Part shown: positions 14,959-59,235 of the stretch, piece after piece
Position numbering within the stretch: position 1 is the first letter of the stretch
Layout of the letters: the number at the start of each line of letters is the position of its first letter
The notes under the pieces: model-generated
What the model saw: only the letters and a program-made list of their open reading frames with translations
Databases searched by the model: none
What the model was told of the DNA's origin: nothing
Assembly (NCBI GenBank): GCA_902787555.1
Contig: CADAGO010000023.1
Location: forward strand, 1-64,000
From: an uncultured Bacteroidales bacterium
GTDB lineage: Bacteria > Bacteroidota > Bacteroidia > Bacteroidales > Bacteroidaceae
DNA length: 64,000 bases
Direction: 5' to 3'
Made by a program: the position numbers and the translations under genes

Positions 14959-15417
14959 ATGAAACTGAAACTTTTTACTACGATTCTCCTGCTCTGCACC
15001 CTGTTACAGGGTCAGGCTTACAAAAAACAGAGTATCGACATCAACGTCAACGGTCAGTCACGCAACATGATCGTTTACACCCCTAACTCGATGTCCGACA
15101 ACTACCCCTTATTCATCGTCACTCACGGCATGAACCAAGATCCTGAATACCAATATGGGGCGGACAAGATGTACGAGCTGATTGATACGGCAAAGTTCGT
15201 CATCGCCTACCTTCGTGGCATCGATAAAACATGGGACACTGGTGGCACAAAGGACAGGGACTTCGTGCTGAAGACCATCGATGAGATGGCAGCCAAGTTC
15301 AGCATCGATACCAACCGCGTGTACTGGTCGGGCTTCTCGATGGGTTCAGCGCTTATCTACCACTGCATGGCTGATATGCAGGATAAGATTGCAGCTTTTG
15401 CACCTACCAGCGGTATT
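14959..15417 (+). pseudogene. Truncated duplicate of the alpha/beta-hydrolase esterase
   Basis: The first 153 or so codons are closely similar to the intact esterase at 18199-20187: the same signal peptide, THGMNQDPEYQYG, and the nucleophile elbow SGFSMGS. After APTSGI the match stops abruptly, and the reading frame runs on into unrelated AT-rich DNA to a stop at 15622-15624. The part with the catalytic His and the C-terminal domains is missing, so a working enzyme is unlikely. The break coincides with the broken end of an antisense toxin-like gene, which points to a recombination or deletion joining two genes. Confidence 0.85.
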
Positions 15418-15488
15418 GCCTTCGGTGGCAGCGAATCGATAAATTCTAAAGCATCATCAGAATATACTACTTTAAATCTTTCGTTCAT
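15418..15488 (-). pseudogene. 5' fragment of a HigB/RelE-like toxin gene
   Basis: On the minus strand, the ATG at 15488 starts MNERFKVVYSDDALEFIDSL followed by PPKA. This matches the usual beginning of phage-derived HigB/Gp49-like RelE-superfamily toxins. The next codons are antisense to the truncated esterase, so the toxin was cut after about 24 residues. Its promoter box (TATCTTTG at 15507-15514, minus strand) and leader survive. The assignment rests on about 24 residues and is therefore moderate. Confidence 0.6.
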
Positions 15489-15655
15489 TTTTCTACTTTT
15501 GCGGTACAAAGATACGAAAACTTTCCATAACAGGAAAGAAAAGATTACTATTTTATGCAATTATAAAAAAGAGCAGAAACTTATCATTTCGGCGTATTTA
15601 AAGCAAAATATCGTTCCCACATAGAAACACATCAAAGGGCTTTTGGCATTCTACC

Positions 15656-15836
15656 CAGAATGAAGTTACCTCTAACAGGGAGAGAACTTACGTTAAAGCG
15701 GGAGAGAAGCTACGTTAATCAGGGAGAGAACCCGTATCTCTCCGTTCGTCAGCGGCCGCAGACGATATCAGCAGCGCCCGCTGCCGATATGGGCAGCGAG
15801 CGCCGACGAATTGAGCAGCGTTCGCTGCGTACCAAC
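15656..15836. repeat. 22-nt periodic array, eight units of two types
   Basis: Four units of 22 nt run from 15656 to 15743; three of them start GGGAGAGAA (15678, 15700, 15722), most contain TACGTTA-like sequence, and the first is degenerate. After a 5-nt gap, four more 22-nt units start at 15749, 15771, 15793 and 15815, each beginning (G/T)CAGCG. Units 2 and 4 of this second set contain perfect 14-nt inverted repeats (GCAGCGCCCGCTGC and GCAGCGTTCGCTGC), followed by an 8-nt linker. The last unit of the first set is itself a hairpin (GGAGAGA/TCTCTCC). The array fills the gap between the broken toxin region and the DKNYY gene. No coding function is apparent. Confidence 0.8.
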
Positions 15837-18198: not shown

Positions 18199-20187
18199 AT
18201 GAAATTGAAACTTTTTACTACGATTATGTTGCTCTGCACCTTGCTGCAGGGACAAGCTTACAAGAAACAGAGTATCGACATCAATGTCAATGGTCAGAAA
18301 CGTAATATGGTGGTGTTCGTACCGAATTCTCTACCCGACAATTCTCCGCTATTCATCGTCACTCACGGTATGAACCAAGACCCTGAGTATCAGTATGGGT
18401 CCGACAAGATGTACGAGATGATCGATACAGCAAAGTTCGTCATCGCTTACCTGCGTAGCGATGGTAACACCTGGGATACAGGAGGAACGAAAGACCAGAA
18501 CTTCGTACTGAAGACCATCGACGAGATGGCTGCGATGTTCAGCATCGACACCAACCGTGTGTATTGGTCGGGCTTCTCAATGGGTTCAATGCTCATCCAC
18601 CACTGCATCGCCAACATGCAGGACAAGATTGCAGCCTTTGCTCCTACCAGCGGTATCCAGTTCAGCGAACAGCCTTGGAACAACTGTAAAAAACCTGTGG
18701 TGCTGCTCGAATGCATCGCTTACGACGATGATGTGTTTGGTTACGAACAGTATGGCATACACGACTATATCGAGAACTATGCCAAGCACGACAAGCACCC
18801 CAATTACAAAAAGACAGCCAACTACAAGCCGATCAGTAGCAGTTGGTACAATGGAGACTTGGAGCGCTGGACAGGCGGACCTAACGGCGGTGAAGTCGTT
18901 CTCTATTCCTACCACAACGGTGGACACTGGCCCATGGACCTCAACCGTCACCTTATCTGGAACTTCTGTAAGCGCTATTCGCTCGACCCCAATATCCCAA
19001 CCGCCCGCATCATCTCCCCTACGGTCAACGATACCTATACCAGCCTCGACACCATCCCTCTCAGCTTCCGCGTCAGCGATAAAGACGGAACGGTGAAACT
19101 GGCTCAGCTCTATCTCGACGGCACGATGCGCCAGGCCTATCGTGACCTCAACGTGCGAGACACCCTTCTCACCTACGAATGGATAAAACCCAAGGCAGGC
19201 AGCCACACCATCCGCATCGTCGTGACCGATAACGACAACAAGAAGAAAGAAGTGTCGCGTACCATCGAAGTACAAAACCCTGTACCTATCAACTTGACTG
19301 AGGTTTGCTACGAGAACAACTCATTCGACATCCCACTCACCGTCAACACCTTCCGCTATGCGTTCGACCTCAGAGTCGAGGCAGAGAACGTGGTGGCATA
19401 CCTGTCGGGCTCACCAGGCAGAGTAAACCTCAAGGCAGAAGAAACGGGATTGAGCAACATCATCACGCTCAAGGTCATGGAGGGAGACACCATCAAGGAA
19501 GGGACCTACACCATGTATCTTAATAAGGTGAAGGACGAGCGTGGAGTGACCGCAGCAGTCATCAAGTTCACCTATACCTTTGGTGTGAGCGAAACCTCAT
19601 CGGCAGCCATCAAGTACAAGAAGCCGTTCCGTGATGCCATGCAGGCTGCTCAGGAACTATATGATGCAACAGCCGACGAACGCTACAGCACGGCTGAGAG
19701 CCTCCGCGAGACAGTCCGCACAACCCTCGAAGCATACGCCACCTTCGCCTCAACCTCACCTACCGAGTACGAAGCCGCTACGACAACTGTCATCGAGGCT
19801 ACGACACCCCTTTCTGTTCGTAAGCAAAACCTCGACGACTACTATGCGCTCTATGCCGCAGTCGATAGTCTCATCGCGCTCTATGCCGACAATCCTGCTG
19901 TTAATACCAACACCAACTTTACCCGTCTGGTCAAGGCTCGCGATTACTACAGCACGGAATCGCGCATCAAGAACGACACCCAGATACTCAACTCTATCAA
20001 GCAGCTCACCACCTACTACGAAAAGTTCCTGAAAGCGTTGGAGAACATCGATACGGGCATCAAGGACCTTATCCCTACCCTCTCACAGCAAAACAGCGTC
20101 AGGTACGACCTCCAAGGTCACAGACTAACTGGTCAACCCATGAGAGGACTCTACATCATCGACGGAAAAAGAGTCATGGTGAGATAA
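18199..20187 (+). CDS. Secreted esterase (PHB-depolymerase/feruloyl-esterase-like) with Ig-like domain and sorting tail
   Basis: This 662-residue protein has a signal peptide (residues 1-20). An alpha/beta-hydrolase domain (about 22-262) has nucleophile Ser127 in SGFSMGS and a probable catalytic His243 in YHNGGHWPMD. A Big_7-type Ig-like domain follows at about 268-365. Then comes a further beta module, an alpha-helical region (about 480-625), and a sorting tail (RYDLQGHRL, then GLYIIDGKRVMVR). The family includes esterases that remove acetyl, feruloyl or similar groups from plant polysaccharides, which suits the xylan-directed neighbours; the natural substrate is not shown. A truncated duplicate lies 3 kb upstream, with a toxin-antitoxin pair between them. 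Confidence 0.85.
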   Translation: MKLKLFTTIMLLCTLLQGQAYKKQSIDINVNGQKRNMVVFVPNSLPDNSPLFIVTHGMNQDPEYQYGSDKMYEMIDTAKFVIAYLRSDGNTWDTGGTKDQNFVLKTIDEMAAMFSIDTNRVYWSGFSMGSMLIHHCIANMQDKIAAFAPTSGIQFSEQPWNNCKKPVVLLECIAYDDDVFGYEQYGIHDYIENYAKHDKHPNYKKTANYKPISSSWYNGDLERWTGGPNGGEVVLYSYHNGGHWPMDLNRHLIWNFCKRYSLDPNIPTARIISPTVNDTYTSLDTIPLSFRVSDKDGTVKLAQLYLDGTMRQAYRDLNVRDTLLTYEWIKPKAGSHTIRIVVTDNDNKKKEVSRTIEVQNPVPINLTEVCYENNSFDIPLTVNTFRYAFDLRVEAENVVAYLSGSPGRVNLKAEETGLSNIITLKVMEGDTIKEGTYTMYLNKVKDERGVTAAVIKFTYTFGVSETSSAAIKYKKPFRDAMQAAQELYDATADERYSTAESLRETVRTTLEAYATFASTSPTEYEAATTTVIEATTPLSVRKQNLDDYYALYAAVDSLIALYADNPAVNTNTNFTRLVKARDYYSTESRIKNDTQILNSIKQLTTYYEKFLKALENIDTGIKDLIPTLSQQNSVRYDLQGHRLTGQPMRGLYIIDGKRVMVR

Positions 20188-20188
20188 C

Positions 20189-20235
20189 AACAAATGAGGG
20201 TGTGTCAAAACAGGCACATCCTCATTTGTTTTATA
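20189..20235 (+). terminator. Terminator after the esterase gene
   Basis: AACAAATGAGG (20189-20199) pairs with CCTCATTTGTT (20220-20230), with inner TGTG/CACA pairing, followed by TTAT. The right end abuts the MITE-like element. Confidence 0.8.
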
Positions 20236-20373
20236 TTGGTGTCCACTAAAAGTTGAAAAATCGATAAAGTATGTGTCCGCAGTGCCGATTAATAGGCATT
20301 GTGGACACATATTTCAATAAGTAAACTCTCCTCCATACTTCATATTCTTCTTCTTTAGCGGACAGTCAATATA
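20232..20373. mobile_element. MITE-like element, 142 bp, with terminal inverted repeats and central hairpin
   Basis: The left end TATATTGGTGTCCACTAAA (20232-20250) is an imperfect inverted repeat of the right end TTTAGCGGACAGTCAATATA (20354-20373). In the middle, ATGTGTCCGCAGTGCC (20271-20286) pairs with GGCATTGTGGACACAT (20295-20310) with two mismatches. No gene fits inside. A left-end-like sequence, GTGTCCGCTAAAAAGTTGA, recurs at 58968-58986. I infer a non-autonomous transposon; no source insertion sequence is present in the window. Confidence 0.65.
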
Positions 20374-20479
20374 AAAGTTTATAGTTTAGAGGGAAACCCA
20401 AAGGGGTGAAGACAGCTATGAGTTAAGACTTTAGTTGTTAGAAGTACATTGTCTAAACAGTACAAGGGCGGTCAGCCAA

Positions 20480-20690
20480 TTCAAAAGGGAAAAGCAGCCG
20501 ACTCAATCGGGAAGATGAGTCGGCTGAGAAGGGAGATTGCCTATAGGCGCACTATCGTTTGCCTAAAGGCATTTTATCATTTGCCTAAAGGCGCACCATC
20601 GTTTGCCTTTAGCCAAATTACTTTCATGGAATGGTAATAGTATGCGGAATTTCACCACAAAGATACAAAAATAAATCTCTTTTTCCAAAT
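20480..20690 (-). ncRNA. Candidate small RNA, locus 1: promoter, 22-nt hairpin array, terminator
   Basis: Minus strand. A promoter has -33 TTTGG (20685-20689) and -7 TATCTTTG (20658-20665); the start is predicted near 20652. The RNA would then contain the 6-nt boxes CTAAAG, CTTTAG, CTTTAG and CTATAG at exact 22-nt spacing (plus-strand positions 20607, 20585, 20563, 20541). The boxes are separated by three 16-nt units that fold, fully or partly, as 6-bp stems with 4-nt loops. It would end at the hairpin AGCCGACTCA/TGAGTCGGCT (20496-20525) followed by GCTTTTCCCTTTT. Predicted length is about 170 nt. The same layout recurs at 59000-59200. It lies between convergent genes. I do not recognise the family; a protein reading is unlikely. 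Confidence 0.65.
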
Positions 20691-20720
20691 AATACGTATA
20701 GTTTTTTTGGGGTAGCATAA

Positions 20721-20762
20721 AAAATTAGGCTGAATCCCTAACATGGTTTTCAGCCTTTTTTG
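20721..20762 (+). terminator. Conserved hairpin with T-run upstream of the candidate small RNA promoter
   Basis: AGGCTGAA (20727-20734) pairs with TTCAGCCT (20749-20756), followed by TTTTTTG. The same hairpin with nearly the same flanks occurs at 59237-59268. It would stop rightward transcripts and insulates the small RNA promoter. Confidence 0.75.
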
Positions 20763-20854
20763 TTACCTTTGTTTCACCACAAAACGAAAGCGACATGAAC
20801 GAAGGTACGCATTTTACCGGAGAGCAATATTTGTTTTAAATCGCTATATAGTTA

Positions 20855-51004: not shown

Positions 51005-51125
51005 TTGATTATATGGAAAAGACTAAGTACTTTTGTAGTGTAAAAACAGCCGGAAAAGTACGCAAGTGCCGAGCACACACTGAGCACACACCGAGCACCT
51101 ACCGAGCACCTACAGAGCATACGAA
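51005..51125 (+). repeat. 11-bp repeat element, copy 2, with internal promoter
   Basis: Five units start at 51071, 51082, 51093, 51104 and 51115 (GAGCAC + CTACC, ACACT, ACACC or CTACA; the last is GAGCAT). Upstream lies the shared head in reverse orientation to copies 1 and 3 (51027-51050), beginning with -7 box TACTTTTG (51028-51035) and a TTG 23 nt before it. The reading frame starting at 51013 is repeat translation and not supported as a gene. The remainder to 51250 is C-rich/G-rich with AGAGTTA heptamers (about 51224-51248). Confidence 0.8.
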
Positions 51126-58833: not shown

Positions 58834-58986
58834 TTATTAACCGAAATCACATGTTATCCTTAATGAGAATTTTTGCAACCCTTAATGGGAACAATTTTTT
58901 CTCTTAAGGGTAATTTCTACAGCGCCTTTTATTTGCGGCTCTCAGGATTGCTGTTTATTTATTATTAGTGTCCGCTAAAAAGTTGA
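58834..58986. repeat. Intergenic stretch with short repeats and a MITE-end-like sequence
   Basis: Two related segments contain CCTTAATG(A/G)GAA (58858, 58880), and ACCCTTAA pairs with TTAAGGGT nearby. At 58968-58986, GTGTCCGCTAAAAAGTTGA matches the left end of the MITE-like element at 20240 and directly precedes the second candidate small RNA locus. Confidence 0.55.
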
Positions 58987-58999
58987 GAATCGGCAGCTA

Positions 59000-59200
59000 A
59001 TTCAAAAAGGAAAAGCAGCCGACTCAATCGGGAGAATGAGTCGGCTGAAAAGGGGAGTTGCCTATAGTCATCCGGTCGGATGACTATAGCCATCCAGTCG
59101 GACGGCTAAAGGCGGACGACCGTCTGCCTTTAGCCGTCTACCCTCGAACTTATAATTAATTTCACCGCAAAGATACAAAAAAATTTCTCCTATTCCAAAT
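59000..59200 (-). ncRNA. Candidate small RNA, locus 2: promoter, 22-nt hairpin array, terminator
   Basis: Minus strand, same plan as 20480-20690. The -33 box TTTGG (59195-59199) and -7 box TATCTTTG (59168-59175) have identical 24-nt spacing. Boxes CTATAG, CTATAG, CTAAAG, CTTTAG (plus-strand 59062, 59084, 59106, 59128) lie exactly 22 nt apart. Three 16-nt units lie between them: TCATCCGGTCGGATGA is a perfect hairpin, CCATCCAGTCGGACGG has one mismatch, and GCGGACGACCGTCTGC has one G-T pair. The terminator hairpin is AGCCGACTCA/TGAGTCGGCT (59017-59046), then GCTTTTCCTTTTT on the RNA strand. Predicted length is about 160 nt. Stem sequences differ from locus 1 while pairing and loop type are kept. 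The family is not recognised. Confidence 0.68.
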
Positions 59201-59235
59201 AATTTGTAAAGATTTTTTTGGGGTACAATATAAAA

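Follow-up and report, generated by a model that had tools for sequence, protein, structure and literature searches.

The locus described here lies in the window, by which we mean the whole stretch of 64,000 nucleotides that was analysed, and consists of a short element between direct repeats, with a minus-strand palindrome array in its interior. Elsewhere in the window, two neighbouring esterase-like genes (14959-15624 and 18199-20187) have nearly identical N-termini, the first being cut short. The features of the element are as follows, with those of a second copy given last.

20225..20233, no strand: left copy of the target site duplication, TTTGTTTTA; 9 bp, the same letters as 20830-20838
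20234..20829, plus strand: the whole element, very probably an IS4-type MITE; 596 bp long, each end at most one mismatch from the family ends, 9-bp duplication perfect
20234..20254, plus strand: left terminal inverted repeat, TATTGGTGTCCACTAAAAGTT, carrying the end pattern
20357..20375, plus strand: transposon-end copy inside the element, TTTAGCGGACAGTCAATA, aligned to the IS ends of relatives (short alignments, E 0.001-0.005)
20472..20712, minus strand: core module of promoter motif, array and hairpin, from the alignment of copies; it also occurs outside the MITE frame
20495..20526, minus strand: hairpin that had been named a terminator; inverted repeat with perfect 11-nt arms (20495-20505 and 20516-20526), axis on the 22-nt lattice
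20537..20620, minus strand: 22-nt dyad array of four 10-nt boxes (GCCTATAGGC type) and three 12-nt spacers
20658..20689, minus strand: promoter motif of Bacteroidota type, TTTG-N20-TATCTTTG, kept among the copies of the same genome
20745..20829, plus strand: remnant of a gene for an IS4 transposase, comprising its leader and 5' start with the ATG at 20794; similar to the IS copies L155-L158
20830..20838, no strand: right copy of the target site duplication, TTTGTTTTA, matching the left copy at 9/9 positions
58963..59230, minus strand: second copy (locus 2 of the initial annotation); left end directly adjoining the core, which has a type-2 array; right end lost

The initial annotation had read the core as a single small-RNA locus, and much of its description can be followed on the sequence. 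On the minus strand the TTTG at 20689-20686 is followed after 20 nt by TATCTTTG at 20665-20658, so that the promoter motif is present as proposed. The four boxes do stand at steps of exactly 22 nt (on the plus strand, CTATAG at 20541, CTAAAG at 20563, CTAAAG at 20585 and CTTTAG at 20607), and TRF likewise finds a period of 22 nt at 20537-20608. The loops in the RNA sense (minus strand) are GATG, GATA and GATA, as given there, and the last hairpin, alone among them, extends through its box pair. Three 6-bp stems had been described; the hairpins exist with the stated loops, but each has standard pairs at 4 of its 6 positions on the minus strand in the window copy. Similarly, the proposed terminator has perfect hairpin arms, but its U-rich tail is interrupted (CTTTTCCCTTTTG), and a terminator scan of the minus strand scored only an inner form of 5 pairs. 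The layout is real and beyond chance, as judged by folds and copies (fold z -5.73 on the minus strand and -3.79 on the plus strand, with 0/200 shuffles as good on either). What did not stand is the single locus: the unit lies in a 596-bp element present in about two dozen copies. The target duplication, the transposon ends, the copy number and the place of the hairpin axis on the array lattice had all been overlooked.

A comparison with Rfam gave no family at E ≤ 1 for this locus, and for the second copy four weak matches, all under the gathering threshold. Over the whole window only tRNA and TPP families were matched, both away from the array; the TPP riboswitch, at 2630-2727, is above the Rfam gathering score. 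A coding reading was also tried and rejected: a plus-strand frame of 62 aa lies across the array, and by eye it is interrupted in the type-2 and other copies.

Transposon ends and IS4 relatives

On its right side the window element closes with TTTTACCGGAGAGCAATA, whose last base is at 20829. The end pattern has 14 matches in the genome (0 for a reversed-pattern control), 10 of these being the left ends of core copies. No transposase gene lies within the element; what is left of one is the beginning of its frame, whose coding sequence doubles as the right transposon end, and the longest ORF has 62 aa. When copies are aligned, the outer frame is about 600 bp in some of them. Among the seven two-ended elements of the window's own genome (2,691,070 bases, 82% complete), the 9-bp target duplication is perfect in three (the window element, L050 and L053), and a clear duplication is absent from the other four (L051, L054 with 6/9, L058 and L069); in the element L017 of genome G010 it matches at 7/9 bases.

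An IS of the parent type, 1441 bp long and found in genome G012, has ends matching those of the window element and encodes an IS4-family transposase (profile matches NF033592, E 3.2e-54; PF01609, 2.4e-24; PF14294, 8.5e-21). The leader and beginning of this gene are similar to the right-hand end of the window element, and L158 and L160, in other genomes, are arranged like that end. From the shared IS4 ends and the relation of the right-hand end to the transposase gene, we interpret the element as an IS4-type MITE (a short, non-autonomous transposon) assembled from IS pieces and the core, and regard this identification as very probable. The internal copy TTTAGCGGACAGTCAATA may be taken as a sign that the element is composite. 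An IS4 transposase acting in trans would presumably have spread it. A PF14294 search of the own genome (82% complete) turned up no intact transposase that could be the parent, and no clear matching target duplication was found for two full IS copies, including that of 1441 bp. No clean empty site was found either, since in G010 what lies next to the flanking gene is unrelated.

It is worth adding that L155, L158 and L160 have, where the IS4 transposase gene begins (..F T G Q..), coding letters that resemble the transposon end in inverted form. Short elements of three genera stop at this F-T-G-Q start, which would provide a built-in route for making MITEs.

The 11/22-nt lattice

The axes of the hairpin, the boxes and the spacers all fall on one 11-nt lattice. 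The so-called terminator is two further units of this lattice, its axis at 20510.5 being exactly 44 nt from that of the first hairpin at 20554.5. A consensus dyad test on the window array alone was not significant (P = 0.164); over a larger set, 15/53 arrays of period 21-23 were dyad-symmetric at P ≤ 0.05, as against 0/14 of the other periods from 18 to 26. In 464 kb of the own genome there are 55 noncoding arrays 40 nt or longer, of which 21 have a period of 22 and nine a period of 11, with unrelated units.

The spacing recurs, with unrelated palindromes, between genes in related bacteria of gut and rumen. In G024, a family member from another genus, 40 of 47 neighbouring palindromes (four palindrome families counted together) are exactly 22 nt apart and none are at 21 or 23. 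The 8-nt spacers within arrays of its palindrome AAACAATATTGTTT average 0.40 identity. Over 161,885 nt of intergenic sequence from 13 genomes of the family, the dyad spacings seen most often are 11, 33, 44 and 22, followed by 10. Dyad pairs at 11 or 22 occur in four of these sampled genomes (G000, G004, G024 and G025) and not in the other nine, and direct repeats at lag 22 occur in eight of the 13. Eight genomes from other families in the order (50,079 nt) gave no dyad pairs at 11, 22 or 33, and five direct 22-nt repeat events, second to lag 10 with seven. When 84,980 species were scanned for three GCCYWWRGGC boxes at steps of 22 nt, 21 stretches were returned, with Bacteroides acidifaciens (strain DSM 15896 has one such array, L213) and Prevotella sp. 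UBA3757 among the matches: 16 are in seven Bacteroidia genomes, one is in a further bacterium and four are in other phyla. In 12 of the 17 non-outgroup arrays GCCTATAGGC occurs three times.

Other periodic arrays were seen in passing. Within the window there are two intergenic arrays of 22-nt period with unrelated units (15673-15731 and 15750-15820; TAACAGGGAGAGAACTTACGT and CAGCGACCGCAGACGATATGAG), and direct repeats of 11 nt, all of the CCGAGCACNNA family, at 2328-2403 on one strand and at 51069-51119 on the other, a unit that recurs in the sampled stretches L073 and L087. A 22-23-nt palindrome array of CCCTTAAGGG type lies beside the second copy, at about 58850-58925, and also near other copies, at L042 and L058. 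In G006, of the same genus, perfect palindrome arrays (GCCTTAAGGC-GCACTCGAGTGC-GCCCTAAGGC-GAACTGCAGTGC-GCCCTAGGGC) are dispersed at L186, L191 and L193.

We found no published description of 22-nt palindrome arrays in Bacteroidaceae, some papers being judged by their titles alone. Bacterial genomes are reported to have an 11-bp period that is linked to the helical pitch of DNA under negative supercoiling (PMC4132750); on that basis the arrays could serve as binding or insulating sites whose action depends on supercoiling. That part of this Bacteroidaceae-like family has a general system, in which unrelated palindromes are set on an exact 11/22-bp intergenic lattice, hold their step while the spacers drift, and are read or made by a hypothetical factor, is a speculation that we put forward with some doubt. 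If it is true, the MITE turned one helically phased palindrome array into a mobile, promoter-bearing module. A lattice with an exact 22-bp palindrome step and free spacers is unexplained by ordinary tandem duplication, and would imply a DNA-binding or copying mechanism with a two-turn step.

Copies, conservation and possible role

Used as a BLASTN query, the array had 35 matches in the own genome, many of them nearly full length; the larger unit had 12 long matches there and one in G010 (61 genomes). A covariance model, the approach proposed in the initial annotation, was built from 21 sequences and found at least 24 strong and distinct places in the 2.69-Mb own genome, with the second copy among them; 20 of these 24 are training rows. 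The count is a floor, 150 of 684 first-look candidates having been scored in that genome, and of its 49 model rows 24 repeat these places on the opposite strand. The remaining row (C6:165-263), weakly matched and at the end of a contig, stands outside the 24 strong copies. Among the 16 other genomes of the genus, the model found a full copy in G010 only, and this copy has its left flank in common with the own copy L052, indicating a shared site. Weak matches in G003, G004, G006 and G010 were rejected as copies when the rows were read: L034, L189, L190 and L192 are plain CAGCCGA...TCGGCTG hairpins behind genes, and L186, L187, L191 and L193 are different palindrome arrays. In viral collections, a protein scan gave no relatives and a pattern scan 0 matches. 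A recognisable left transposon end is present in 10 of the 24 core copies and the others are embedded among different repeats, so the core may spread in more than one way, perhaps being also moved or copied by another route.

The 22-nt spacing emphasised in the initial annotation is kept in homologues, in 66/74 neighbouring pairs of boxes over 24 copies. Conservation and promoter counts refer to 23 own copies, the C18:35505 copy and L017 being left out. The minus-strand -7 box is kept in 22 of the 23, and TTTG lies exactly 20 nt from it in 19. Mean majority identity is highest on the U-tract side TCAAAAGGGAAAA (0.977), in the -7 box stretch (0.957) and in the hairpin (0.912), and lower in the array (0.809), the leader (0.741) and the right flank (0.622).

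This unevenness, with promoter box and hairpin best kept, argues against a functionless passenger minisatellite, whose array was built by slippage and copied by transposition, and whose conservation would simply reflect recent spread. One copy in G010, with no full copy in the other 15 genomes of the genus, is what a recent passenger would give, and the BrickBuilt authors propose a repeat-trapping MITE (PMC4596501). However, plain slippage and drift predict something other than the exact 22-nt step kept in G024 at 0.40 spacer identity, and on this evidence we consider a mere passenger unlikely.

The same conservation figures also speak for a mobile small-RNA gene, each copy of which would produce a trans-acting RNA of about 165 nt from the minus-strand promoter to the hairpin, the MITE having merely spread it: the -7 box and its 20-nt spacing to TTTG are retained, and the hairpin and U-tract side are far better kept than the leader and right flank. 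Paired changes point the same way, with changes on both sides at 14/34 pairs against 9.7 +/- 1.6 in shuffles, 2/500 of which were as high (L046, L047 and L048, with an insertion or deleted array, excluded); these double changes for the most part distinguish one subtype of array from another, there being two, and thus represent few events. On the other hand, the wobble cells of the four helices, read on the plus strand over few columns, show no clear strand preference (G-T 71 against A-C 34; 17/16, 19/3, 4/12 and 31/3), the U tail is broken, tail and hairpin are part of the repeat lattice, and the layout is that of promoter-less palindrome arrays elsewhere. We consider such a mobile small-RNA gene improbable. 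Of the dedicated non-coding transcript first proposed, the promoter motif survives, being kept among copies, but the unit is cargo of a multi-copy MITE and its hairpin sits on the array lattice. As the motif is kept, an RNA of about 165 nt from the putative minus-strand promoter is possible.

The placement of the copies suggests a different role. Neighbours could be assigned for 20 of the 23 own copies, three having none in the fetched stretch; 10 of the 20 are between convergent genes, compared with 25 of 124 gaps in a sample (p 0.0066), while eight are between codirectional and two between divergent genes. Period-22 arrays are at convergent sites in 10/18 cases in G000 and 7/11 in G024, and GCCTATAGGC arrays in named genomes in 3/15, with no enrichment. 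We tentatively suggest that the array may act at gene ends like a BIME, through hairpins that work in both directions or through binding sites kept in phase along one side of the DNA. It might thereby muffle read-through or buffer supercoiling, and the kept promoter may add an RNA terminating in a hairpin of the array itself. The best explanation of the whole is an IS4-type MITE that carries as cargo a BIME-like array on a 22-nt lattice, and we favour it as probable, if by no means certain. In place of a new small RNA there is thus a mobile element by which a promoter motif and a hairpin array are scattered between genes.

Comparison with known systems

Enterobacterial BIME/REP elements are tandem palindromic units between genes. 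The present arrays are likened to them by layout, being intergenic tandem palindromic units, several of which favour convergent gene pairs, and they differ in the exact 22-nt step and in that no Y1 transposase was matched in the own genome. A REP/REPIN-type element moved by a RAYT (Y1 tyrosine transposase) would account for high-copy short palindromes between genes in a BIME-like arrangement, but is highly implausible in view of the 9-bp duplications, the IS4-type ends and the 0 matches to Y1_Tnp in the own genome (82% complete). REP elements are reviewed in PMC3733652.

Two families from P. gingivalis bear comparison. MITEPgRS/MITE464 is also a MITE with internal tandem repeats, and, as far as it is described in PMC4596501, has 41-nt repeats and IS5-type ends, unlike the window element. 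The closest known system is BrickBuilt, a MITE of Porphyromonas gingivalis with a 23-nt minisatellite (Klein et al. 2015). According to that paper (PMC4596501), it has about 20 intergenic copies with predicted stem-loops and no Rfam match, an imperfect 23-nt tandem repeat corresponding to two helical turns, and promoter activity at its ends. Like it, the window element is an intergenic Bacteroidales MITE with a two-turn tandem repeat, here in about two dozen copies. The ends differ, BrickBuilt having 12-nt IS5-type ends GAGACCTTTGCA and the present element IS4-type ends TATTG(G/C)TGTCCG(C/G)TAAAA (TATTGGTGTCC...) with 9-bp duplications. The repeat is 22 nt rather than 23 nt, is palindromic with a fixed four-box core, and probably differs in sequence. 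The number of units is nearly constant here, in contrast to 1 to 22.8 in BrickBuilt (PMC4596501). The window feature thus resembles a known kind of MITE, and it is the lattice that is the interesting part.
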